Both the position numbers and the translations under genes were made by a program. DNA of 64,000 bases. Origin: an uncultured Myxococcales bacterium (lineage in GTDB: Bacteria > Myxococcota_A > UBA9042 > DTJE01). The stretch covers positions 1-64,000 of the forward strand of contig CAIZWN010000017.1 in the NCBI GenBank assembly GCA_903936705.1, in the 5' to 3' direction. The first letter of the stretch is position 1. Each line of letters begins with the position of its first letter. Below are positions 8,165-33,744 of this stretch, piece after piece. The notes beneath the pieces are model-generated. The model worked only from the letters and a program-made list of their open reading frames with translations. It made no database searches and was not told the origin of the DNA.

Positions 8165-8476
8165 ACCAGCGTCCGTTACTACGACACGTTCAGCCACGGC
8201 ACCATCCCGGGCGCGGATCATACACCCAGAACCATGCAGCGGCGTAGCCAGGAACCATCATGGCGTTGGCTGGTGCGCGATAAGGAAGCGCAACATGCGA
8301 TGGCACTTCAGCGACTGATGAGTCCTCTTCCCAAAAGCAGAAGGAAGGGTTCTACGCGAGGCAGGGAGATCCGCGGCCGTCGAATCGCGTGCTTCATCGC
8401 GCTGGCAAGGATACCACCGCAGATTCGGGCACGGGATCAAGCAGCTGAAGACATGTGGCTATGGCGCCATGACAGG
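8165..8476. other. Intergenic region without a recognisable gene
   Basis: This roughly 310-bp stretch between asd and the histone-like gene contains only short open frames with no family character and no ribosome site. It must hold the asd promoter (minus strand) and the 3' end of the histone-like transcript. I saw no convincing hairpin with a T-run and no consensus -35/-10 pair. Confidence 0.5.
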
Positions 8477-8920
8477 TCACTTCTTCTTGGCAGGGGCCTT
8501 CACCGGAGCTGCCTTCGCGGGGACAGGCTTCTTGGCCGGAGCCGCCTTCGCCGGCGCAACCTTCTTCACGACGGCCTTTGCCGGAACAGCCTTCTTCGCG
8601 GGGGCCTTCGCGGGCGCAGCCTTCTTCGCGGGGGCCTTCGCGGGCACAGCCTTCTTCGCAGGGGCCTTCGCCGGCGCAGCCTTCTTCGCGGGGGCCTTCG
8701 CGGGTACGACCTTCTTCGCAGGGGCCTTTGCCGGAACGGCCTTCTTGGCCGGGGCCGCCTTCGCCGCAACAGCCTTCTTGACCGGCGCCTTCACCGGCGC
8801 CGCCTTGACAGGAGCCGCCTTCTTGGCCGGCGCCACAACCGGAGCCGCCTTGACCGTCTTCACTGGTGCTGCGGCTGCCTTCTTCGGGGCTGCCTTCTGG
8901 ATGATCTTCTTGACTGCCAT
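8477..8920 (-). CDS. Lys/Ala/Pro-rich histone H1-like protein
   Basis: The 147-residue protein starts MAVKKIIQKAAPKK and then consists almost entirely of Lys-, Ala-, Pro- and Val-rich repeats built on APAKKA(A/V)PAKAP, ending in KKK. This composition is like eukaryotic histone H1 tails and bacterial relatives such as AlgP or HctB, which bind DNA or condense the nucleoid. There is no globular domain. A strong GGAGGG ribosome site fixes the start at 8920. The antisense strand gives a long hydrophobic FAGA repeat frame that is only a shadow. The repetitive DNA should vary in length between strains. Function as a nucleoid or polyanion binder is inference from composition. Confidence 0.8.
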   Translation of the reverse strand: MAVKKIIQKAAPKKAAAAPVKTVKAAPVVAPAKKAAPVKAAPVKAPVKKAVAAKAAPAKKAVPAKAPAKKVVPAKAPAKKAAPAKAPAKKAVPAKAPAKKAAPAKAPAKKAVPAKAVVKKVAPAKAAPAKKPVPAKAAPVKAPAKKK

Positions 8921-9191
8921 TCTACCCTCCAAATAGTGAAGTTCCAGAACAGTGAAAAAGTAGATCCGGTTCGACTGGAAGTCAAAGAAACTGCAGATTG
9001 ATTTGAACAAATCGATAAAGATCAATCGACAGCCGACAACGCTTTTACCCCCCCAAATACCCCCCCCACAACCTAGGATTCCTCGCACGGATACATGCGC
9101 TGACGGCATTCTCCTGTTGTTACAGATGCTTCTGCGCCAACCAAGCCGGGGGGGTATTTGCACCAGGAGGCAAGTACCAATGCCGGATCTG

Positions 9192-10004
9192 TTATTGCAA
9201 CATCCCGCCGATCCCAACCGCCATAGCCACCGGGCCTGGAGGCAGCGGCGGAACCGGCGCAACGCCTCCCGCGCCCATGACGTTCTGGATCATCGTGGTA
9301 CCTTTCCATTGCAGAAACTGCATGGAAAACGCACTGGCAATCGCCTGAAAGATCTGTAGGGAATGCTGGCCGGGCGCGCCGTGATTGGCCAGCATCATCC
9401 CCATCAAGGCCGGCGAGGTCATCATGGCGTCGCCTGGACTGAAGCCAGACGCAACCGGGACCGGGATGTTGGGGCAAGGCGGCAAGGTTCCGGCGCAGGC
9501 AGCACCTGCCGGAAACATCAACGTACAGGAAAAACCGCTATGCCAAGCCACGAAAGCCTGTCCGATGGCCAGCGTTATCGAACTGACATACTGGATGAAG
9601 GCCGGCTGCTTTCCTGCAGTCACGACGCTGGCAAACAGGGCAGGCCCCATCATCGTCGGCGCAGCAACCAGGGTTCCAGGAGTCGCCATGCCCACCGGTC
9701 CGTTGATCAACACGCCGACAAATTTTGCCGACGATTGAAACGATCCGAACGCCTGACCGATACCATCACAGACGGCGTCGATCAGTTCCTCGACGTTCTT
9801 CGAAATCACCTTGTGGGTGTCCACGTGGTACGACAGCGTCGATACGGACTGGAACAAGGCCGCCGGATCCGGAGCTTTCTGATCCTTCGCCCCGAAAGGC
9901 GCCTGGGGCCCGAACCCCGAAAAACCTTCGGGCAGCATGATTGCGTTGGCCTTGAACAACTGCTTTGCCGTATTGGCCATCAGGCCGGCCTGAAACTGTG
10001 GCAT
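9192..10004 (-). CDS. Hydrophobic three-repeat protein of unknown function
   Basis: I do not recognise this 270-residue protein by name. It has no signal peptide. Three imperfect repeats are visible at about residues 76-125, 144-200 and 219-268: each begins with a helix ending in (I/A)xxAF, followed by an aromatic- or Trp-containing segment, a short strand, and a Gly/Pro-rich loop (for example GVLINGPVGMATPG and NVMGAGGVAPVPPLPPGP). The Cys residues cluster in the second repeat. A GGAGG site six bases upstream supports the start at 10004; the longer frame to 10097 would overlap the divergent gene. Such Gly/Pro-looped repeats remind me of proteins found near contractile injection loci, but that is a guess, as the baseplate module is 41 kb away. 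It is divergent from the lamin-tail lipoprotein, 63 bp apart. Confidence 0.7.
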   Translation of the reverse strand: MPQFQAGLMANTAKQLFKANAIMLPEGFSGFGPQAPFGAKDQKAPDPAALFQSVSTLSYHVDTHKVISKNVEELIDAVCDGIGQAFGSFQSSAKFVGVLINGPVGMATPGTLVAAPTMMGPALFASVVTAGKQPAFIQYVSSITLAIGQAFVAWHSGFSCTLMFPAGAACAGTLPPCPNIPVPVASGFSPGDAMMTSPALMGMMLANHGAPGQHSLQIFQAIASAFSMQFLQWKGTTMIQNVMGAGGVAPVPPLPPGPVAMAVGIGGMLQ

Positions 10005-10067
10005 CTGAACCTCCACGCCGCTTCTGATACTAACCCGAAATTGGGACGGTTCCCGAGGGAGATGACA

Positions 10068-10907
10068 ATGCATACTGTCGGGTTCGGACGATGCCATTGG
10101 CTGTTTGTGGCGATGCTGCTGGCAGCGACTCCCAGCATTTTATTGGCGTGCAGCGACGATGGACCCATCAAGCCGCGCTACACGACCGATGCGATCGGTT
10201 CCGAGGCAAAGACCAACGACCTTTCGGAAGATGCTGCCACCGATCTACCGCTGAAACCAGATGATACGCTTTGGAACACTGGAATTTTCGACCATGGCCC
10301 ATTGGCCGTGGACCTCGAAAATCTGGCAGGGACACCCGACGACTTTGAACTTGTTGACGTTTTGTCGGCTGACGAACGGCCTGACGAACCGGCTGCGCAC
10401 AATTGTCCGACACCCGGCGCCCTGATTTTCACGGAGTTCATGGCGGACCCCGACGCCGCGACTGACGCGGCAGGCGAGTATCTTGAATTGTTCAACACTT
10501 CTTCAGCTGATATCGACCTTCGCGGACTTGAATTGCATAGCGGCGCCGCGGTCCACCTGATTCGTGGAGACGCACCAGCGCTGGTGCCTGCAAACGGCGT
10601 CATCCTGCTGGCAGCAAGCGGTGACACTGGCGCAAACGGAGGCATCTGGCCTGGATACGTGTACGACAAAATCCGATTGTCCAACACCGGGGACGACTTC
10701 GCGCTGGTCTGCGACGGGACCCAGATCGACAGGGTCGTCTACATCGCGTCAAAGTGGGGCATCAGGGCCGGACACGCAATGACACTGGACCCGTCTTGCC
10801 TGAACACCATGCTGAATGATGCTTCGGCCTGCTGGTGCAACGCGACGACCCAATTCGGGGCAGGCGACTTCGGAAGCCCTGCGCTGGCCAATCAGGCTTG
10901 CCCATGA
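10068..10907 (+). CDS. Lamin-tail-domain lipoprotein
   Basis: The 279-residue protein has a signal sequence with lipobox ILLAC (Cys28), an Asp/Thr-rich linker of about 80 residues, and a lamin-tail (LTD) fold from about residue 113: GALIFTEFMADPDAA, then GEYLELFNTSS and LDLRGLEL-like strands, and a C-terminal DDFALVCDGTQIDRVVY hairpin. LTD modules in bacteria occur on exported nucleases and surface proteins; no catalytic domain is present here, so it is probably a binding or structural lipoprotein. The ATG at 10068 has GAGGGAG at ideal distance; the ATG at 10062 abuts the ribosome site. It shares a 63-bp divergent intergenic region with the three-repeat protein. Confidence 0.85.
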   Translation: MHTVGFGRCHWLFVAMLLAATPSILLACSDDGPIKPRYTTDAIGSEAKTNDLSEDAATDLPLKPDDTLWNTGIFDHGPLAVDLENLAGTPDDFELVDVLSADERPDEPAAHNCPTPGALIFTEFMADPDAATDAAGEYLELFNTSSADIDLRGLELHSGAAVHLIRGDAPALVPANGVILLAASGDTGANGGIWPGYVYDKIRLSNTGDDFALVCDGTQIDRVVYIASKWGIRAGHAMTLDPSCLNTMLNDASACWCNATTQFGAGDFGSPALANQACP

Positions 10908-11075
10908 ATGGCAATTGCAAAGGGCTGGCCCGACGGACTACGCTTGAAAATGATCCGGGAGTTCCACGGCGAAGACCGCTTTGGGTGACGCCAGCATCGA
11001 TTTCTGCTTCAAGGTCACGAAGCAGGCATCCGAAACTGCCGGATACACCAATGCTGAAACGGACGCTACCGAGTG

Positions 11076-22400: not shown

Positions 22401-22636
22401 CGCGCATGCCCCCCTGACGCTGCCGGCCATCCTTGGACTGGCTGGATCATACGCCCTACTGCAAAAACCTTGATCGCCAACACGAGAAATCAGCCCAGAA
22501 CTGGGGAGTTTACTTAGGATACGGCTGGAATCGCCGGCGGGCATGGTAGTTTGAAATGTTCGTAACCTGCGCCTTGGCCGCAGATTCCGACTTCGATGTC
22601 GCACCCGTAGGATACGGTTCGTGTCCGGGGGTGATC

Positions 22637-23458
22637 ATGGGATTGCAGCTACGGACCGTGCACCAGCGGATCCTCGATATCCTGCGTCAACTGGAGCAGA
22701 CAGACGACATCAAGGTCCTGCTGGCTGTCGAATCGGGCTGCCGCGCCTGGGGCTTCGAATCGCGAGACAGCGATTGGGATGTGAGGTTCCTGTACGTCCA
22801 TCGCCGCGACTGGTATCTGGCCATCGACCGGCAGCAGCGTGACGTGATCGAGCGTCCGATAATCGACGAGTTGGACGTGTCAGGCTGGGACCTGCGAAAG
22901 GCGCTGCTGCTGCTGCATGGTTCGAATCCGCCGCTTCTGGAATGGATGGCCTGTTCGCAGATCTACCTGCAGCAGACCGGCATTGCGGATCGGATGACCG
23001 ACCTTGCGAAAGACGATGTCCGGGCCGAGCTGGCGACGATGTTCACCGACCCGTGGTCCCTGGACCCGGCCCGCCGCGCGGCCCGCGTGACCCGCGAGGT
23101 CGCGACCTACCTTGCCGACCTGGCTGTCGAGTTGCAGGCGGACGGCACGCACCCCGAGGTCGTCGCCCGCTTTCTGATGCGCTGCCTGTTCACCATGTTT
23201 GCCGAGGACATCGGCCTGCTGGAAGCAGGATGGGCACATGCGGCTTTTGCAGGAGAACGCGACAAGCTTCTCGAAGCTGCACGAGGGACAAGGAACGCGG
23301 GCGAATCCCTTGTTGAGGAGGCCGCAGTCGATGTACTTGCTGAACTCGCGCTCGACAAAGGCCGGATAAATGAGGGTTGCATCTACAGAACGGACAGGAT
23401 TCGTTCGCGGATGATGCGACTGACATCTTCAAAAACGGCATCATCACCAGCGGCCTGA
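22637..23458 (+). pseudogene. RlaP-type nucleotidyltransferase fused to a methylase N-terminal fragment
   Basis: The frame (273 residues) is a chimera. Residues 1-125 match the RlaP/YcgL-like nucleotidyltransferase family: VLLAVESGCRAWGFESRDSDWDVRFLYV is the catalytic region, and NPPLLEWMACSQIYL is a family block. From about residue 135 the sequence changes to the N-terminal region of MmeI/type IIG-like DNA methylases: FTDPWSLDPARRAARVTREV and FLMRCLFTMFAEDIGLLEAG. The last 25 codons read antisense to the hipA 3' end. Both parents are truncated at the junction, as expected from a deletion, and the rest of the methylase is gone. A short protein might still be made from the ATG at 22637, which follows a CGGGGG sequence. 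Confidence 0.75.
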
Positions 23459-24615
23459 CGGACTTCGGGGTCGTCCAGTTCATGTAGTGTCTTCTGCGCC
23501 ATAAACTTCAACCGATCCCGAAGCATGGGCCAACCCAGACCGGTTTCTTCCGCCATCTTTTTCCAGTGATCCTGCGTAATGCTTTCAATGGATGCGCTTT
23601 TGCCTATCTTCATGGCCGGAACCGTGGACAATTCCGGCCAGGCCAGCGTGCAGACCAGATCATACAGCGGGGCCAGCCTGTGTTCCCCGTTCCGGTACAG
23701 CAGCGAATAATTCTTGGCGTGCGCATCGGCGTTGCCAATCAGGATGTTGAAGATAACGCCGTCGGTGAAATCCCGGATATCCAAAACCGGAACGCTGGAC
23801 CATTCGCGAAGCATCGCGATGCAGTCCCGAAGAAGCGGGCCCCCCTCCTGCTGGTACTTGTGTTCCGGTGGAAAGCCCATCGCCTGGCAGAAATCTTCCT
23901 GATGAACCCTGGCGATGCTTCCGTCCGGCAGGATCACCCGATCGTAACGCTGGACGACAAGGCATCGATGTGCATGGACCGCCAGCACGGTGACCTGCGG
24001 TACGTTCAGACCGACCCGCCGCGCCAGTGTCATGCACAACGCTTCATTAGCGACCAGACCTGGAAATCGCGCCGGTTCAGGCTTGATTATGTGGGTGCTG
24101 GGCGTATCGCCCACAGGCAGCGCAATGCCCCGCCCCCGCATCACGACAGGCAGTTTATCCTGCGCACCAGCCAGGGACAGCCGGATGCCATCCTGTCCCG
24201 CAAGCAGCGGACGGCGTGGGAGTTCCGCAATTATATCGGCAAGTTCCTGTTCACTCAGTTCGCGATATGACGCTGTCATCGGGGCGGATGGCGACTCGGC
24301 TTCCGGCAGCAGGCTGACAGCCCCCGCACATTCGCCCCCGATTCGTTCCAGCATGGCAAAATCGTTACGTTCGCTGATTCCCAGAATCTTCGCGATCTGT
24401 TGCCGAGGGCCTTCTTCCGGCAATATTCCAGCGAAAAATGCCCTGGCCAGCTTTCCGAGAAACGGTTGTTCCCGCAAAGGCAGTGACCGGGAAAGCGGCA
24501 CGGCGTCATTTCGGGCCAACCAGGACGGGTCATAACTAAATTCAAGCAGGCCGTCGTCGTTCTGGTCAAGCATTCCGACCGGTTCCAGATTCAAATATAC
24601 CGTCAATCGCCTCAT
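23383..24615 (-). CDS. hipA: HipA-type serine/threonine kinase toxin
   Basis: The 410-residue protein is a full-length HipA family kinase. In E. coli HipA phosphorylates glutamyl-tRNA synthetase and induces dormancy. Visible are the Couple_hipA N-terminal domain (LTVYLNLEPVGMLDQ), the SLAGAQDKLPV loop with the Ser that is autophosphorylated in the family, HIIKPE with the ATP Lys, the catalytic NADAHAKNYSLL, and LAPLYDLV with the metal Asp. All key residues are present. Its ATG overlaps the antitoxin stop by 4 bp (ATGA), the usual toxin-antitoxin order. Its 3' end overlaps the convergent chimera by about 75 bp. Confidence 0.95.
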   Translation of the reverse strand: MRRLTVYLNLEPVGMLDQNDDGLLEFSYDPSWLARNDAVPLSRSLPLREQPFLGKLARAFFAGILPEEGPRQQIAKILGISERNDFAMLERIGGECAGAVSLLPEAESPSAPMTASYRELSEQELADIIAELPRRPLLAGQDGIRLSLAGAQDKLPVVMRGRGIALPVGDTPSTHIIKPEPARFPGLVANEALCMTLARRVGLNVPQVTVLAVHAHRCLVVQRYDRVILPDGSIARVHQEDFCQAMGFPPEHKYQQEGGPLLRDCIAMLREWSSVPVLDIRDFTDGVIFNILIGNADAHAKNYSLLYRNGEHRLAPLYDLVCTLAWPELSTVPAMKIGKSASIESITQDHWKKMAEETGLGWPMLRDRLKFMAQKTLHELDDPEVRQAAGDDAVFEDVSRIIRERILSVL

Positions 24616-24851
24616 CGGCCTTCACCCCCGGCGTCGTTCCTGTCGGCGGCGTCGACATACAAGCCGATTCCCAGCGCCTGCAGAACATCAAGTATCTTGC
24701 CGGACTGGCAGGTGGATTTTCCCCTTTCGAGTTCAATGATGAACCGCAGTCCGGTGCAGCTGACCAGCGCCAGGTCTTTCTGGCTGACCTTCAATTCCTT
24801 GCGTTGCAACCGAATCGTCGCGCCAAGCTCTTCTGTGGTTTTGATTTTCAT
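24612..24851 (-). CDS. hipB: HipB-type antitoxin (Xre-family helix-turn-helix)
   Basis: The protein of 79 residues contains an HTH_3 fold (TIRLQRKELKVSQKDLALVS, then RFIIELERGKSTCQSGKILDVLQALG). It should bind HipA and repress the operon. I take the ATG at 24851 rather than the one at 24872: the promoter described separately would start transcription near 24877, leaving about 26 nt of leader for the former but only 5 for the latter. It overlaps hipA by 4 bp. Three TCCCG-NN-CGGGA operators lie upstream. Confidence 0.93.
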   Translation of the reverse strand: MKIKTTEELGATIRLQRKELKVSQKDLALVSCTGLRFIIELERGKSTCQSGKILDVLQALGIGLYVDAADRNDAGGEGR

Positions 24852-24872
24852 CTTTGTTCCGGCCCCGGTCAT

Positions 24873-25959: not shown

Positions 25960-26315
25960 CTCTTCCTCCGTCAGGGACGTCTTGCCAGACGCGTCCCAAT
26001 GTTGTTTGCCGGATGATACGTCGGTAGTGCTGGCGATACCTTTCTTGCGGGCAGATCCCCAGCTTCCTTGGCTTGCCGATGTTCTGGACCCGGACGTCGT
26101 TTACAAGAACCTCAAGCACCTCGAACTGCCCACCGCCTCGCCGCCGCTGCTGCCAGACTGCTGCGTCGTCGAGGAGTTCGAGCAGTGCTTCTACCTCTGC
26201 GCAGCAGACGACAGCCAGTACGCCGATCACGTCAGGCCCGGGCACAACCGCTTCCAACAGGCTCCACCCGGGAGAATCTGGTATTATCGACCCCCGGTTT
26301 CGGTGGAGTAAGGCG

Positions 26316-28400
26316 ATGCCTTGGTGTCGTACCAGATCGTCGAACATGAACGTAGCTGCAGTTGTCCTTGCAGCCATGCTGATCGTCCTCGCCGTGTCAT
26401 GCGGTGGCTCCACCAATCGCCCGGTCGTCACCTTTGATGCCTTGGATTCCGGGGACGATCCGGACCTGATTGGCGACGCGTCACTCGATAACACGGGGCC
26501 GGGTGGCGACAACGAACGTGACAGCATCGTGCCGCCCGACCTGGTCGATGACCCGGGATCGCCGCCGCCCGATTCGTTTGATGACCAGAACATCGCAACC
26601 GATCCGGGTACCGATGTACCAGGATGCAAGGACTCGTCCACCTGCGCGCTGGGCAACATCTGCTTTGACAGCCAGTGCGTTCCGGGTTGCGGATCCGATC
26701 GGGATTGTGCCGGTGGCCTTCATTGCAAGCCCGAATCGCTCCCCCACGGCTTTTGCGTGCAGTGCATCTCCAACGACCATTGCGACGTGGCTGGTGGCGA
26801 GAAGTGTGTTGCCGGTTCATGCATCATGACGTGCCTGACGAATGACGACTGCGCCGACCAGGCGGATGCTCCATTCTGCAACAGCACGTCCGGCACGTGC
26901 GTCCAGTGCCTGTCCGACGGTGTCTGCCCGATCGGGACGCTGTGCCTCGCCGGGACCTGCCAGTCCGGTTGCCGATCGGATCGCGACTGCCCTGACAGCC
27001 TGAAGTGCGACCCGAAATCGGGCGCGAACGGCGGTTGCTTTACCTGCGTGCAGGACCCGGACTGTAACGGGCGCATTTGCAGGGAACACCAGTGCGTGAT
27101 CGATTGTTCGGTTGTGAAGTGCATTGCCGAACGACCGATTTGCGATCCCTTGAACGGCGGGTGCGTTCAATGCCTGGTCAAGACCGACTGTCCGGTCGGT
27201 AACCTGTGCCTAGGCAACCGTTGCATCGAGGGCTGCGAAGTCGACAGGGACTGCAGCGGTGGGCGGAAGTGCTCCGGTGGCACGTGCGTCCAATGCATCA
27301 CCGACAACCAGTGCCCGGTGCAGCAGAAGTGTTTGCAGAACCAGTGTCTGTCGGCGGAGTGTGCCAGGGATGGCGACTGCGGCGGCGGCAAGTACTGCCA
27401 CCCGTTGCTGCTGTCGTGCGAAACCCTTCCGGCCAAGCATTGCGTCCTGGATTCGGATTGTCCCGCCGGCTACCCACCGATCATCCCTGCACAGATGTGT
27501 GATCCCTTGACCCGCGAGTGCATCCCGTCATGTGATGGCAGCCTGGGCATTTCGCTCTGTTTCGATCTGTTGGGAGGGTCGACGCGCGTCGTCTGCGTCG
27601 ACAACGGTTGCTACGATTGCGGCACCGACAACGACTGTTCGGGAACTCGCTGTGACCCTTACGACCGGCATTGCCTGGTCTGCTCGGCCGATACGGACTG
27701 TTCGGTGCCGACCTGGCACTGTGATGCGGCCGGCGGCACGTGCAAGGAATGTCTGAACGATAAACAGTGTGCATTCCCGATGGTTTGTGACGAGTTGAAC
27801 GGCAACCGGTGCGTTGAATGCTTGCAGGACATCGACTGCAAGACCCCAGGCAAGCCTATCTGCGGCAAGTCGAAGGTCTGCATTGCACCTTGCCAGAACG
27901 AGTGCTCGGCTAGGAACACGGTTTGCAATCCTGACGATGCCATCGCACCGATCGGCTTTCTGACATGTGGCGACTATGACGACGACCCATGCCTCGAGTA
28001 CGGGAACGCTACCGAGTGCGGCAGCGGATCGTCATGCACGACGCAGATCAGCGGGCTTGGCAAATGCGTCTGCCAGAACGAGTGCTCGTCGGGGTTTAAG
28101 CGCTGCGATGCCGGCGCCGCTGACCAGTTCGACACGTGCGTGCAGAATAGCACCAGCGGTTGCTGGTACTGGAGCACCGGTTATTGCGGGTCTGGCGAGG
28201 TCTGCATCAGCGGGGCGTGCGAGTGCGAAAACGCGTGCACCCTGGGCGCCAAGGCGTGCGATTCCCAGTACGCGGACCAGGTCCTGCTGTGCGACACCGA
28301 TCCGAATGACTACTACGCGGTCTGCCCCTACTGGCAGTATTCCACGATCTGTTCCACGGGCTACGTCTGCAAGGGCAAGGGTGTCTGCCAGTTGCCTTGA
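26316..28400 (+). CDS. Cys-rich repeat lipoprotein
   Basis: This 694-residue lipoprotein has the layout of the one at 588-2969: a signal sequence with lipobox LAVSC (Cys28), an Asp/Pro-rich linker to about residue 110, then tandem disulfide modules of about 35-45 residues with the pattern C..D.DC....C....G.C. After about residue 500 the repeats change to a CQNECSxGxxxC type that recurs three times, each followed by Trp/Tyr-rich segments. The start at 26316 has GGAG ten bases upstream; an internal ATG at 26346 is possible. It is probably surface-exposed. Its relation to the other Cys-rich lipoproteins (here and at 46459) is one of architecture; the function is unknown. Confidence 0.85.
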   Translation: MPWCRTRSSNMNVAAVVLAAMLIVLAVSCGGSTNRPVVTFDALDSGDDPDLIGDASLDNTGPGGDNERDSIVPPDLVDDPGSPPPDSFDDQNIATDPGTDVPGCKDSSTCALGNICFDSQCVPGCGSDRDCAGGLHCKPESLPHGFCVQCISNDHCDVAGGEKCVAGSCIMTCLTNDDCADQADAPFCNSTSGTCVQCLSDGVCPIGTLCLAGTCQSGCRSDRDCPDSLKCDPKSGANGGCFTCVQDPDCNGRICREHQCVIDCSVVKCIAERPICDPLNGGCVQCLVKTDCPVGNLCLGNRCIEGCEVDRDCSGGRKCSGGTCVQCITDNQCPVQQKCLQNQCLSAECARDGDCGGGKYCHPLLLSCETLPAKHCVLDSDCPAGYPPIIPAQMCDPLTRECIPSCDGSLGISLCFDLLGGSTRVVCVDNGCYDCGTDNDCSGTRCDPYDRHCLVCSADTDCSVPTWHCDAAGGTCKECLNDKQCAFPMVCDELNGNRCVECLQDIDCKTPGKPICGKSKVCIAPCQNECSARNTVCNPDDAIAPIGFLTCGDYDDDPCLEYGNATECGSGSSCTTQISGLGKCVCQNECSSGFKRCDAGAADQFDTCVQNSTSGCWYWSTGYCGSGEVCISGACECENACTLGAKACDSQYADQVLLCDTDPNDYYAVCPYWQYSTICSTGYVCKGKGVCQLP

Positions 28401-28579: not shown

Positions 28580-30664
28580 CTACTCCAGGAACTCCTGCAG
28601 CGCCACGGTGTCCAGCTCGCCAAACTGACCGCTGTTGTAGACCGTCACGTGGGAACCGCCGACGGTCTGATAGAGCCTTTGATAAAGCGCATCCAGCGTG
28701 GGCGATGGAGTCGTGGCCCCCTGGACGAAAAGCTGGTAGGCGAACTGATCGGCCAGCCAGGACTTGAGGTCCTTGTCGTAGTTGGCGCCCAAGGAACTCT
28801 CGGAAGGGTTGGCCCCTGCAAAGAGCACGGCCCCGGGCGAATTCAACTGCGTGCCCATGATGCCCCCATGGCAGGTCTCGACGGCGACAAAAAGGCGGCG
28901 ATATCGCGACTCGTCGAACATCGTCTGTACAGTATCGGCAAGGTCCTGTGGAAGGACGACGGTCAGGCCTGATTGCTGGGTCTGGCCGGCTTTGCGGCCC
29001 CCGACCAGCATTCCCTCAGGATTCCCGTGACCAACGAAGAAGGCGTAAACGTTGTCGTTCGCCGTGCTCTCGATAACCGTCGGCAACAATGCGCTGTTCC
29101 GGCCGGCAAGAATGTCCAGCAGATCGCCGGCGTTCAACTGGGCAAGCCGGTAGTCGATCCGGGCATCGGCGTAAAGATTCGGACCACCGGCCACGTTCCG
29201 CACCACGCCAGGCTCGGAATTCAAGGGGTTGGTGGCGAGGTCATCGGCGAGGACCAGGATGATGTGATCGTCGGGGATCCCGTTCGCGCGCAATGCCTGG
29301 TACTGCGCCAGGGCATCCGCCTGGTGTCGGTAGTTCTCCCAGCCGCTGGAGATGGCCGCAACCAGCGCCCACGTTGACGCCTTCGGCCCGGGCTTGTAGC
29401 TGCCGGTGTCGTCCAGCGCCTGCAGGTGATTAAGCGAGGCAAAACTGCGTGCCAGCGACGTGGCGCGCGCCGAATCGCCGGACGAGACGAACTCGACGAT
29501 TACGTACTCCCCGGTGTCGATGCGCCAGTGGCCATAGGTCGATGAGATCGGCTCGGTGTGGAGATCCGGGTCGAAGTCCAGCGGGCCGGCAGCGCCGCTG
29601 ACGTTGGGCAGATGCCCGCTGCGGATCGCCGCCAGCGCATCGCCGATCCCCTGCCGATCCCAGCCCGTGTCGATGCCGCGCGCCTCCACGACCTCGGCCA
29701 TCGCATCGGCCAGCGGCTCGCCTCCACGCCCGCCGCTTTTCTCGAGGCCGTAGGCAACCAGGGAGAGCGCGTCATATCCACTGGCCGCATACGGGGGCGG
29801 TCGGTGACCGAAAGTGACCTGGTAGGCAACCTCGAAACCGCTTTCGGGGTCGGGGGCTGGCGCGGTGCCCTCCAGCCCCTCGGCGAGCTCGCCCAGATCG
29901 GCGATAAATTGGGGGTAGTTGGCTGAATCGCTGAAGAAGAGGCGGGTCGATGGCGCCGCTGCGCGCGCCGAACGCGTGATGCATTCGATCACGCTCGGCA
30001 ACGACGACGCCACAAAAAGCACCTCGGGCTGCGCGGCAAGCGCCTGGGACACGCAGGGACCACAATCGGCGTCGCTGGCGTCGCAGCTGACCAGCCCGGA
30101 GACATCAAGCGCCAGTTCGGTGGCAAAGAAGCCGAACCAGTCGAAGAACGTGGAACCGTACGTATCCGCGGAGGCGATGAGCGCCACATTCCTGACGCCG
30201 CCCCTTGTGCCCAGCAGCAGCATGGTCTGCACCTGGGCGATGTCGGACTCGACCGTGCGCCAGATAAAGCGCTGCCCGCCAAAGGCGCGGAAGATGTCGC
30301 CCGCGGTCGCCGACGGCGAAACCAGCGGCTTCTTCGTCTGGACAAAGCGGCCAGCGATTTCCTGCAGGCCGCTGGAGATGTCCGGCCCGATTACCGCGAC
30401 GATCGAATCGTCGTCGAGGAACCTCGCCGACAGTTCCTGCAGATCGCCCTTGGCCGTGTCGCTGTAAACAAGCTCGATGGGGCGCCCCGCCGTGCCACCG
30501 TTACGGTTGATGTTGTCCAGGGCGAATTCCAGCGGCTCGCGCCAGCCCACGTCGCCTGAACCAGAAAGGGGCAAAAGCACGCCGACGCGCAACGGGGCGT
30601 CCGAGGAACAGCCTCCCAGCACCAGGGCCAACGTGGCGACCAGCGCCAGGCATCCCGGCCTCAT
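28580..30664 (-). CDS. Receptor-type binding lipoprotein fused to a C13 (legumain-like) peptidase domain
   Basis: The 694-residue lipoprotein (LVLGGC, Cys19) has two domains. Residues 25-390 match the type 1 periplasmic binding fold of branched-chain amino-acid receptors (Peripla_BP_6): RVGVLLPLSGSGDVG, AVIGPDISSG, VSPSATAGDIFR and ASADTYGSTF. Residues 432-640 match peptidase family C13 (legumain/GPI8): WALVAAISSGWENYRHQADA, GIPDDHIILVLADD, the catalytic His546 in YAFFVGHGNPEG, the catalytic Cys598 in VAVETCHGGIM, and AGANPSESSLGANYD. Both catalytic residues are in place. A ligand-sensing domain on an Asn/Asp-specific protease suggests ligand-controlled cleavage at the envelope; that is inference. 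Its ATG overlaps the stop of the BMP gene by 4 bp, so they are coupled. Confidence 0.85.
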   Translation of the reverse strand: MRPGCLALVATLALVLGGCSSDAPLRVGVLLPLSGSGDVGWREPLEFALDNINRNGGTAGRPIELVYSDTAKGDLQELSARFLDDDSIVAVIGPDISSGLQEIAGRFVQTKKPLVSPSATAGDIFRAFGGQRFIWRTVESDIAQVQTMLLLGTRGGVRNVALIASADTYGSTFFDWFGFFATELALDVSGLVSCDASDADCGPCVSQALAAQPEVLFVASSLPSVIECITRSARAAAPSTRLFFSDSANYPQFIADLGELAEGLEGTAPAPDPESGFEVAYQVTFGHRPPPYAASGYDALSLVAYGLEKSGGRGGEPLADAMAEVVEARGIDTGWDRQGIGDALAAIRSGHLPNVSGAAGPLDFDPDLHTEPISSTYGHWRIDTGEYVIVEFVSSGDSARATSLARSFASLNHLQALDDTGSYKPGPKASTWALVAAISSGWENYRHQADALAQYQALRANGIPDDHIILVLADDLATNPLNSEPGVVRNVAGGPNLYADARIDYRLAQLNAGDLLDILAGRNSALLPTVIESTANDNVYAFFVGHGNPEGMLVGGRKAGQTQQSGLTVVLPQDLADTVQTMFDESRYRRLFVAVETCHGGIMGTQLNSPGAVLFAGANPSESSLGANYDKDLKSWLADQFAYQLFVQGATTPSPTLDALYQRLYQTVGGSHVTVYNSGQFGELDTVALQEFLE

Positions 30665-31635
30665 TGCGATTGCTCCGCAAGATCCCGCGTTTCCTGGGCA
30701 ACGGCTTCGTCACGCGCCGCTGCAACCAGGGCCGCAACACGGTCGGCAAAGACTTCGTTCACGACCAGGTCCGTCCCACCTTCACCGAGGCCCAGCGACA
30801 TTGAACCCTCGACGAATTCGCCGGCCGCTTCTTCGTGGATCGCCTGGGTCACGGACAGGTCGAGCCTTCTGACCACCGAGCCGACGATCACGCCACGGCC
30901 AAGCCACGATTGATCAACGTCCATGCCGAACGCGTACCGTCCCGGGGCCTCCCTGGCCGCCTCGAACACGCCCATCCCCGATCCGCCCGCCACAGGAAAC
31001 ACCACATCGGCGTCGGCGAACATCCTTTCGGCCACGGCGCGGGCCTGATCGGGGCTGGCAAAGCCGACCTGAGTCGTCGAGAGATACTCGATGTCGACAA
31101 CGGTTCCACCGGCAAAGGTAACGCCGGCGACAAAGCCGCGGACGAACTCGTTCACGATCTTGATGTCCATCCCCCCGATCACCGATGCCTTCCTGCGCGG
31201 CGAGACGGCGACGGCGGCTACCCCGGCCAGAAACGAGGGCGCGAACGAGCGATACGAGACGGTCTTGAGGCCGGGACAGGGGCCGTCGTTGCCGTCAAGT
31301 TCCACAACATGCCGTCCGCCGAACTGGCATCGCGTTCCGCTTTCCGGAAGCACGGCCATCGTGAAGATCAGCTCGGGATCCTGCATAGGGCCGTCGGTCC
31401 ATTCGGAAAAGATGCTTGCCGCCTCGGCGCGGCCGCTGGGGGACCTGGTGGTCAGGTGGAAATCCGTGTCCAGACTGGCGCGCACCAGGCCCGCATACAC
31501 GTCGTCGCAGTAGGAACGATCCCCGATTCCACCCGTGGCAAACAGCACGTTGACGTGCAGCAACCGGTCGTCCTGCTGGCCGCACCCCACCATCAGCAGC
31601 AGCACTCCTATGTATCGGCGTATGGTGATCGTCAT
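30661..31635 (-). CDS. BMP-family (PnrA/Med-like) binding lipoprotein
   Basis: The 324-residue protein has a lipobox LLLMVGC (Cys18) and the BMP fold known from nucleoside-binding PnrA/TmpC and from Med. Diagnostic segments are VNVLFATGGIGDRSYCDDVYAG, YRSFAPSFLAGVAAV, KASVIGGMDIKIVNEFVRGF and VVFPVAGGSGMGVFEAA, then DVDQSW. In other bacteria such proteins bind nucleosides for an ABC transporter, but no permease or ATPase gene is here. Being coupled (ATGA) to the receptor-protease gene, it more likely acts as a sensor. It lies 110 bp after the two-component remnant. Confidence 0.88.
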   Translation of the reverse strand: MTITIRRYIGVLLLMVGCGQQDDRLLHVNVLFATGGIGDRSYCDDVYAGLVRASLDTDFHLTTRSPSGRAEAASIFSEWTDGPMQDPELIFTMAVLPESGTRCQFGGRHVVELDGNDGPCPGLKTVSYRSFAPSFLAGVAAVAVSPRRKASVIGGMDIKIVNEFVRGFVAGVTFAGGTVVDIEYLSTTQVGFASPDQARAVAERMFADADVVFPVAGGSGMGVFEAAREAPGRYAFGMDVDQSWLGRGVIVGSVVRRLDLSVTQAIHEEAAGEFVEGSMSLGLGEGGTDLVVNEVFADRVAALVAAARDEAVAQETRDLAEQSQ

Positions 31636-31745: not shown

Positions 31746-32221
31746 TCAAGCCGTCGCTTCCAGGGGACCGCGCAGTTCGGCAACAAGCCCCCCAGTCTCC
31801 CCGGGCTTCAGCACGAAACTCCACCCCTGGAACTGTGCGACGCGGGCTACGATGGAGAGCCCGAGTCCGCTTCCGGCCGAACCGCGCGAGCGGGCCGCGT
31901 CACCCTGCTCGCCACGCTGCATGACACGCAGGCACTCCTCCTGCGTCAGCCCAGGGCCGTCGTCGGCCACGCGCAGCACGAACCAGTCTTCCTCGGCCTC
32001 CAGCACAACCGCGACGTTCCCGCCGCTGACGTTGGATCGTCTTGGCTGAATCAACCAGTGCCCGCGACAATTCTCCCAGTTCGTCCTGGCCGGCCTCCCG
32101 CAAAAGGTCCAGCGGTGCGCCCGCGCCGCCACCAGATGGCCGGAAACCCAGCTTCCTCAAGGTGGGCCACGATCTGCCGGCCCAGCGCTTCGTCATCTTC
32201 GATGAGGAGGACGATACCCAT
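31746..32221 (-). pseudogene. Two-component system remnant: response regulator start joined to histidine kinase end
   Basis: From the ATG at 32221 (AGAGGCTC upstream) one frame gives a receiver-domain start MGIVLLIEDDEALGRQIVAH and breaks off after about 34 residues. A second frame then reads APLDLLREAGQDELGELSRAL, like a kinase linker, and a third gives the kinase ATPase end NVAVVLEAEEDWFVLRVADDGPGL and GSGLGLSIVARVAQF through to the terminus. The conserved phospho-Asp, His box and N box are all missing. Two internal deletions with frame changes explain this. The original regulator-kinase operon probably preceded the BMP and receptor-protease genes. Confidence 0.75.
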
Positions 32222-32248
32222 GAGCCTCTTATAGCACGCACTCCTTTA

Positions 32249-32485: not shown

Positions 32486-33226
32486 CTACAACTTCACGAT
32501 CGAGTTCTTGTAGGTATAGCCATCGACTTTGACCGGGACTGGCCGGACCTCCCAGGACGAACTGCGGCAGCAGCACCAGAACCACAGCCTGTATTCCTGG
32601 GCCGTGCCCCAGCAATCCGTGGGCGCGAAGGACCCGTAAGGCGGGAACCCCATGGGGCACCACCCGCCGGTTTCATACGTGTACGACTCGCCGGGCGCGA
32701 CCTTCACGTCTTCTTCGAGGAAGTCTTTCCCGATGCGCTTCGTGTAGAGGCCTAGGCTGATCTGCTCGCTGGTCCCGTTCTTGACCGTGGTCTTGTAGCC
32801 GCCCGAGTTGGCCGGCGCGACGGCCACTGCCTGGCCCGTGACTGCCAGTTCATCATTTTGGAGGTCGACCGAGATCCCGTCGCCGGTCCTCGCCAGAATC
32901 GCGGTCCACATCGTGCCATCGACCGAATTGTCCACGATCCCGACCACCTGGCCCGAGGCATCGACCGTTCCCGCGAAGGCGCCCGCTACGAACTGCGACT
33001 CCACGGCTCCGGCCACAAGGCCGCTCTGGTCGGACCAGGCCAGGTTGTCGAACTGGAAGGGAACGTCTACGACGGTCTGCGCTCCGGACACGGAACAGGT
33101 GCCGCTCCACGTCCCGCTGTAATCGGAAGCCTTTACTGATGCTGCGGTTCCCCCGTCGTTTTCACAGCAGACGATGATCAGAAGCGTCAGAAATACGATC
33201 GGTGCGATGCACGTTCGAATGGACAT
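32486..33226 (-). CDS. Small lipoprotein of unknown function
   Basis: The 246-residue protein has a lipobox-like LLIIVC-C, with lipidation expected at one of the adjacent Cys near residue 20. The first half (YSGTWSGTCSVSG, FQFDNLAWSDQSGLVAGAVESQFVAG) is beta-rich, like lipocalin or META-type folds where SGTWSGTC is common. The second half has a Cys-rich segment (FWCCCRSSSWEV) and ends in a beta hairpin. I do not recognise a family for the whole. TGGAGACC precedes the ATG at 33226. It is monocistronic. Confidence 0.75.
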   Translation of the reverse strand: MSIRTCIAPIVFLTLLIIVCCENDGGTAASVKASDYSGTWSGTCSVSGAQTVVDVPFQFDNLAWSDQSGLVAGAVESQFVAGAFAGTVDASGQVVGIVDNSVDGTMWTAILARTGDGISVDLQNDELAVTGQAVAVAPANSGGYKTTVKNGTSEQISLGLYTKRIGKDFLEEDVKVAPGESYTYETGGWCPMGFPPYGSFAPTDCWGTAQEYRLWFWCCCRSSSWEVRPVPVKVDGYTYKNSIVKL

Positions 33227-33744
33227 GGTCTCCAAACCCACCCCCGAAAAATGAAGCCTGCCGCTAGTCTACCCACGGCGTCGCTTCAGGAACAAGCATT
33301 TTACCCCCCCCACACCACGGCCTTTTCCCCGCCACGTAACGCCGCACGGGAATAGCGATGCAGTCATGGGTCCTCGCCGGTGCCCTGGCGTTAGCTGTTC
33401 GCGGCATTGGACGGCAGCTACTCCCTCGCGTCCGACTCGAGAAACTCCTCCAGCGGCATCCCGCCGGCGCCTGCACAGGCTTCGCCTTCGGCCTTGACGA
33501 TGGACACAAGCCCCTCCCACCTCAGCCCCATTGCGCCCCCGGCTTTCACCGGTTGAGGGACAACTGCGTTCGCAAAAAGGCGTCAGGTGCGAAATTTCCC
33601 GGAATTTCGAAGAATGAGGTCGTGGGAGCCAGGATTTCGACGGCCAGAGTAACGGGTTCAGCCTCTGTGATACCTGGATAACGATGACGTTTTGTGGTTG
33701 ATGTGTCTTACACTCTTACACTCGATCCGCCAAGGGGGGTGGTA
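33227..33744. other. Intergenic region, no supported gene
   Basis: About 520 bp between a minus-strand lipoprotein and the plus-strand SDR gene. A 37-codon minus-strand frame (33531-33418; MGLRWEGLVSIVKAEGEACA...) has a GGGGG-type ribosome site and protein-like sequence and could be a relic or a small protein. A C8 tract lies at about 33303. No other coding signal or clear promoter was seen. Confidence 0.4.

Follow-up and report, generated by a model that had tools for sequence, protein, structure and literature searches.

A lipoprotein joining a LivJ-type receptor to a legumain-like protease, encoded with a second receptor in bacteria and archaea

One gene in the window (the whole 64-kb stretch of DNA analysed here) encodes a lipoprotein in which a LivJ-type receptor is joined to a legumain-like protease of family C13, and a second receptor is encoded directly upstream of it. 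The fusion is real and conserved, rather than a product of chance or of faulty assembly, as the same fusion is found end to end in 58 loci from several phyla. Its parts are known and their wiring, conserved in bacteria and archaea, is undescribed. A preliminary description of this DNA had stated that no system of this type was known; our search of open-access papers agrees, since none describes the fusion, although it may be mentioned elsewhere or in a domain-architecture database. We propose that the protein is an asparaginyl/aspartyl protease anchored to the envelope and under the control of a sensor made of two receptors, a reading to which we give about an even chance of being correct. Within this proposal, catalytic competence and the pairing of the receptors are the firmer parts, gating of the protease is less secure, and the choice of MACPF lipoproteins as substrates is the least secure.

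The fusion protein and its predicted fold

The gene is a single unbroken frame with an ATG start that encodes receptor and C13 protease together (Table 1). That both lie in one lipoprotein frame had been claimed earlier, and the lipobox, the two Pfam domains and the single 694-aa ORF bear this out; the coordinates had also been given correctly, with the minus strand left unsaid. The lipobox consists of LVLGG followed by Cys19, and this Cys is near-invariant among the fusion homologues (alignment A1). The receptor part matches Peripla_BP_6 at an E value of 1.6e-26 (94.3 bits; Pfam cut-off 31.7) and the protease part matches Peptidase_C13 at 3.9e-43 (148.3 bits; cut-off 22.8). The latter match, which the preliminary description had set beforehand as a test of its reading, covers positions 1-247 of the 258 in the profile; the C13 domain is complete. 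A search of the window's genome found this C13 domain and no other.

Table 1. Features of the receptor-protease fusion and its partner gene in the window
Feature	Position	Strand	Evidence
Fusion lipoprotein gene, Peripla_BP_6 + Peptidase_C13	28580..30664	minus	ORF and translation (694 aa), Pfam, AlphaFold2, Foldseek, 58 fused homologues
Signal peptide and lipobox, residues 1-19	30608..30664	minus	Sequence; expected lipidated Cys19, Ser at +2
Peripla_BP_6 (LivJ/LivK-type) receptor domain, residues 24-325	29690..30595	minus	Pfam, Foldseek, conservation
Peptidase_C13 (legumain-like) domain, residues 431-681	28622..29374	minus	Pfam; same span in genome search; legumain fold
Catalytic His546 (legumain His148)	29027..29029	minus	Alignment to solved legumain; 57/58 fusions
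Catalytic Cys598 (legumain Cys189)	28871..28873	minus	Alignment to solved legumain; 57/58 fusions
S1 pocket Arg446-His447 (legumain Arg44, His45)	29324..29329	minus	R 58/58, H 48/58; pocket per PMC4357240
S1 pocket Ser624 (legumain Ser216)	28793..28795	minus	S 58/58; pocket per PMC4357240
S1 pocket Asp639 (legumain Asp231)	28748..28750	minus	D 29, N 28, T 1 of 58; pocket per PMC4357240
Bmp/PnrA-type receptor lipoprotein, 324 aa, directly upstream	30661..31635	minus	Pfam Bmp E 3.8e-26; 4-bp ATGA overlap
Two-gene cassette, sole DNA similarity of window to L031	28580..31587	minus	blastn, 79.8%

The AlphaFold2 model of the fusion, built from an alignment of 26 fused proteins, has a mean pLDDT of 92.2 and a pTM of 0.90, which for a two-domain protein suggests that the two large domains (about 400 and 260 residues) are placed confidently relative to each other. 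In Foldseek searches with this model, the receptor part matched LivK (3td9; E 5.7e-23, TM 0.83) and the C13 part matched mature legumain (7fqh; E 3.9e-22, TM 0.90, rmsd 1.9 Å over 271 columns), the alignment spanning the mature peptidase portion of legumain. Solved legumain also matches the C13 part by sequence alone, at E 3.4e-30. The catalytic residues named in the preliminary description, His546 in FFVGHGNPEG and Cys598 in VETCHGGIM, are exactly placed and align with their legumain counterparts. It had also been said that the reading would fall if these residues were far apart; in the model superposed on mature legumain each sits just past its expected strand, and the close superposition suggests that they are not. 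The receptor part is assigned to Peripla_BP_6 by its profile and two-lobed fold, and the protease part to family C13 by its profile, fold, His-Cys dyad and S1 pocket.

The Asn/Asp pocket of legumain is formed by Arg44, His45, Ser216 and Asp231 (PMC4357240). Arg446, Ser624 and additionally His672 are invariant in all 58 fusions, and 57 of them keep both residues of the dyad. In 28 of the 58 fusions residue 639 is Asn, and in the Fibrobacter branch Phe stands in for His447; these changes in the predicted S1 pocket mean that the P1 preference of the Fibrobacter branch, and of other relatives with Asn639 or Phe447, may differ from that of legumain. Phe at the one position and Asn at the other were seen in the Fibrobacter-branch loci L144-L153. 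The one catalytically dead fusion (L100, positions 8744-10957, genome G643) has Asn and Ser instead of His and Cys at the dyad; it is a second copy with no Bmp neighbour, and the other copy in that genome (L099) is intact. Both the retention of the dyad, Arg446 and Ser624 across bacteria and archaea and the fact that the sole dead copy is a Bmp-less one beside an intact one count in favour of the proposed protease, and the catalytic competence of the predicted enzyme is well supported. In the receptor domain, Thr120, Asp141 and Asp298 are conserved, with Thr in 42 and Ser in 12 of the 58 fusions at position 120, which we take from LivJ to be a ligand contact.

The C13 domain is followed by just 13 residues (translation and Pfam), and the C-terminal activation peptide/LSAM prodomain of legumain is not present. 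In legumain, this prodomain both inhibits and stabilises the peptidase domain (PMC4357240); any inhibition or stabilisation of the fusion must therefore come from elsewhere. A hydrophobic segment after the C13 domain is likewise absent, the protein ending in VALQEFLE, and as the fusion has no C-terminal transmembrane anchor, its membership of the GPI8 group is not supported.

The second receptor and the spread of the cassette

The partner gene was overlooked in the preliminary description, as were the spread of the fusion and its linkage to MACPF genes in relatives, while the reading of a receptor joined to a complete protease with conserved residues was sound. Among PDB profiles, the partner matches Lbp (7x0r) at 2.1e-38 and TmpC at 9e-28, and also 4pev and BmpD. 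A Bmp gene adjoins the fusion, with short overlaps, in 37 of the 58 loci: it is present in nearly all Bacteroidota and Fibrobacterota, in the Treponema locus, in several archaea and in the window's own branch. The partner is not obligatory, as 17 of the 21 myxobacterial/deltaproteobacterial fusions have no Bmp neighbour (4 of these 17 with too little flank to tell).

Several observations indicate that the two receptors belong together. When the whole 64-kb window was compared by blastn with the nearest relative locus (L031), the similarity was limited to the two genes, which indicates that they are kept or moved as a pair. Distances among Bmp proteins and among their fusions correlate with r 0.949 over 34 pairs, a value that partly reflects shared ancestry and that none of 1000 permutations reached. 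Four methanogen loci encode a Peripla_BP_6 domain fused straight to a Bmp domain with the protease absent (Pfam), and three of the genomes with such fusions have no C13 domain whatever. In one further locus (L091), another Peripla_BP_6 protein takes the place of Bmp as partner, with a 4-bp overlap. Together with the methanogen fusions, this points to the receptor pair as the core, with the protease added to or lost from it. We regard receptor pairing as well supported.

The surroundings of the cassette were examined for other members. The Cys-rich repeat lipoprotein encoded convergently at 26073-28400 (+), which matches Dickkopf_N weakly and probably begins at MNVAAVVLAAMLIVLAVSCGG, was dropped as a candidate, since among the fetched loci it has a weak relative in L112 only. 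The 251-aa lipoprotein without a Pfam match at 32486-33241 (-) was also dropped, as none of the fetched loci encodes a homologue. A broken two-component remnant that looks like a deletion relic lies at 31746-32222 (-), immediately upstream of the Bmp gene; in it, the beginning of a response regulator is joined, with a change of frame, to the ATPase portion from the C-terminal end of a histidine kinase. Further away are a gene for a HipA-like kinase overlapped by a small HTH gene (HipBA-type pair; 23383-24872, -) and one for an RlaP-type nucleotidyltransferase, associated with RNA repair pathways (22556-23458, +).

A listing of genomes with the same fusion had been suggested earlier, and it yielded the 58 loci in bacteria and archaea, all with the architecture end to end and a few near-copies of one another. 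A scan of GTDB contigs gave full-length fusions in 25 loci, 78 to 29% identical, from deltaproteobacteria, Myxococcota, Methanomicrobia, Bacteroidales, Fibrobacter and Treponema. The distribution is patchy, comprising Myxococcota/deltaproteobacteria, Bacteroidales, Fibrobacterota, one Treponema and archaea of the Methanomicrobia, and cultured hosts include Plesiocystis pacifica and Parabacteroides distasonis. In every group sampled, the fusion occurs in a minority of genomes: 6 of 295 in the order of P. distasonis (Bacteroidales), 17 of 121 in the Fibrobacter phylum, 1 of 149 in the spirochaete phylum and 9 of 197 in the methanogens' phylum, part of the last being receptor-only. Of 379 genomes from the window's phylum, 34 gave a C13 match, the strong full-length ones being fusions; the fusion is missing from all genomes sampled in the genus and family to which the window belongs. 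Half-length C13-like matches in the same phylum (L012-L014; genomes G268, G353 and G345) are not joined to this type of receptor.

A tree of the proteins follows phylum for the most part; the sequences of Bacteroidota, Fibrobacterota and Treponema are mixed with one another, a pattern to be expected if some lateral transfer has taken place. One fusion from a genome titled Coriobacteriaceae (L037) lands among archaeal sequences, which is probably due to a binning error or lateral transfer. At another locus (L153, positions 8434-10714, genome G1122), receptor and C13 domain are in two frames, owing to either a frameshift or a genuine split. Viral contigs held no relative of the fusion, and the matches on plasmids were ordinary solute-binding proteins aligned to the receptor half only. 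NCBIfam has no dedicated model for the cassette, and no cassette protein matched a PADLOC defence model at E 0.01.

MACPF lipoprotein genes beside the cassette in relatives

In some relatives, the cassette is accompanied by genes for MACPF lipoproteins. L096 has three BACON-MACPF lipoprotein genes, then the Bmp gene, then the fusion, the successive gaps being 15, 7, -4 and -14 bp; two MACPF genes lie at the cassette in L097, and one each in the Treponema locus (L048) and in P. distasonis (L051). All 7 MACPF genes of these four genomes (G379, G496, G678 and G383) are located at the cassette locus. In Fibrobacterota, a MACPF lipoprotein gene adjoins Bmp in ten neighbourhoods, mostly directly upstream. 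Among 121 Fibrobacterota genomes, 17 carry the fusion and 19 a MACPF gene, and 12 carry both against 2.7 expected (Fisher p 2e-8), the two lying within about 4.3 kb of each other in all 12. Among 295 Bacteroidales genomes, the corresponding numbers are 6 and 21, and the 3 with both (p 0.005) have them co-located. On the tree, the linkage forms one Fibrobacterota/Bacteroidota branch and one Treponema locus, so these genomes are not independent of one another. No MACPF gene was found in the window's genome.

A lipoprotein family of about 500 aa, of unassigned type, lies beside other cassettes (L049, 18-1517; L052, 720-2315; L053, 5023-6717; L054, 1-1020). In three loci it is directly upstream of Bmp, where MACPF lies elsewhere, and in Fibrobacter it is divergent. 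This family, which replaces MACPF in some Bacteroidales and Fibrobacter, gave an AlphaFold2 pLDDT of 38, too low to be informative (alignment A4, five rows). Acidic residues after the lipidated Cys, a surface-export signal, were mixed in Bacteroidota and Fibrobacterota (8/15, 4/14, 3/14 and 3/11), with start-site errors interfering.

Two groups of published proteins invite comparison. The C11 proteases of Bacteroidales, such as fragipain, are likewise clan CD cysteine proteases on surface lipoproteins, and they shed surface proteins and activate BcpT, a pore-forming toxin (PMC9308784). Toxins as substrates are in this respect an analogy, but these enzymes belong to family C11, have Arg/Lys specificity and carry neither a receptor domain nor a second receptor. 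Among the BSAP toxins, which are MACPF proteins, some carry a BACON domain at the N-terminus (PMC12853789), and the cassette-side MACPF lipoproteins share this BACON-MACPF layout; they differ in being tied to a receptor-protease cassette.

Proposed control of the protease and alternative explanations

In the mechanism that we propose, the lipid-anchored C13 protease with its own LivJ-type receptor would work together with the second, Bmp/PnrA-type receptor. The paired receptors would respond to small molecules outside the cytoplasm, the LivJ type to amino-acid-like and the Bmp type to nucleoside-like ones, and ligand binding would alter the contact between receptor and protease, in the role of legumain's prodomain. 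The protease would then cut envelope or neighbouring proteins after Asn (or Asp), the P1 preference predicted for the window protein being that of legumain, and in the Fibrobacterota, Bacteroidota and Treponema versions the likeliest substrates would be the co-encoded MACPF lipoproteins. Small-molecule control is suggested by the architecture of the fusion, and the suggestion is strengthened by the second receptor in the operon (37/58 loci) and by the Peripla_BP_6-Bmp fusions in archaea. Precedent comes from the C11 surface lipoproteins that activate BcpT and shed surface proteins (PMC9308784, PMC12853789). Against the proposal stand the frequent absence of Bmp (17/21) and the narrowness of the MACPF linkage, which is absent in the window's genome. 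Tentatively, and as something rather unlikely to hold in full, the cassette may represent an undescribed signalling class of bacteria and archaea, in which two receptors jointly gate an envelope legumain-type protease whose cut, in the Bacteroidota, Fibrobacterota and spirochaete versions, arms or releases the co-encoded MACPF lipoproteins.

Receptor domains can serve again as plain scaffolds. The fusion might accordingly be an unregulated surface protease, its receptor a scaffold or a substrate-capturing arm (e.g., one that holds peptide ends), engaged in constitutive shedding or turnover of envelope proteins. The many myxobacterial copies without Bmp and the partial conservation of ligand-contact positions, as seen in the Thr/Ser split at residue 120, fit such a role, and fragipain and similar clan CD lipoproteins shed surface proteins with no receptor domain at all (PMC9308784). 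We nevertheless consider it unlikely, as a full-length receptor domain is kept across phyla, and as it leaves unexplained both the second full receptor in most cassettes and the protease-less receptor-receptor fusion in archaea.

Nutrient scavenging, in which proteins would be digested at the surface and the two receptors would bind the freed amino acids or nucleosides for transporters encoded elsewhere, agrees with the membership of both receptor folds in solute-binding families and with the gut and sediment organisms among the hosts. It is made distinctly unlikely by the lack of ABC permease or ATPase genes, of which there are none in the window neighbourhood and none conserved beside the cassette in any clade; moreover, the narrow Asn/Asp pocket is poorly fitted to general digestion and a Bmp-type receptor is an unlikely binder of proteolysis products.

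The preliminary description had also raised transpeptidation at the envelope, for which we found no specific support. By such a route, the C13 domain would join proteins to a surface acceptor under receptor control, as GPI transamidase or plant asparaginyl ligases do. Family C13 includes ligases as well as GPI transamidase, ligase and hydrolase are not separable by sequence for this domain, and the human GPI-transamidase subunit PIGK (GPI8), which shares the C13 fold and dyad, matches the C13 part at E 5.6e-28 by sequence alone and at 7.6e-20 by fold (Foldseek on the model). However, animal legumain is slightly closer than PIGK (108 vs 101 bits), the fusion has no C-terminal membrane helix to serve as the anchor seen in PIGK, and no sorting-signal family was seen beside the cassette. 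Neither a GPI pathway nor the other GPI-transamidase subunits are known to us from the host organisms. A transpeptidase seems to us improbable.

That the fusion is decayed or a chance joining without function, or an artefact of MAG assembly, is very improbable. Such a reading would fit the origin of the window's sequence from a MAG, the absence of the gene from the closest relatives sampled and the remains of a two-component system immediately upstream. The 58 loci of the same architecture, with intact dyads, conserved operon order and cultured hosts among them, nevertheless refute chance or artefact as a general explanation, although the gene may have lost its expression in the window's organism.

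The cassette differs from each of the families that it resembles. The fusion shares the fold, the His-Cys dyad and the pocket residues with legumain (MEROPS family C13), but it is a lipoprotein with an N-terminal LivJ-type receptor in place of legumain's C-terminal LSAM prodomain, and it is encoded in a bacterial or archaeal operon with a second receptor. The receptor fold and lipobox are those of the LivJ/LivK branched-chain amino-acid binding proteins, whereas here the receptor is fused to a protease and ABC transporter genes are not alongside. Similarly, the partner has the profile, the lipobox and expectedly the fold of the Bmp/PnrA family (TmpC, BmpD, Med), but it lacks a nucleoside ABC transporter and is paired with the protease-receptor fusion or, in methanogens, fused to Peripla_BP_6.

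To our knowledge, legumain-type proteases have been studied almost wholly in eukaryotes, where they are controlled by a C-terminal prodomain and by pH. The prokaryotic form, with a receptor replacing the prodomain and a second receptor beside it, makes ligand-controlled extracellular proteolysis open to test in a concrete case and places the little-explored C13 enzymes of bacteria and archaea in a genetic context. It may also be a natural, chemically controlled Asn-specific protease of use in engineering. Clan CD lipoprotein proteases are already known to activate one family of gut-bacterial pore-formers, and the MACPF linkage, if functional, would tie a switch of this kind to such pore-formers.
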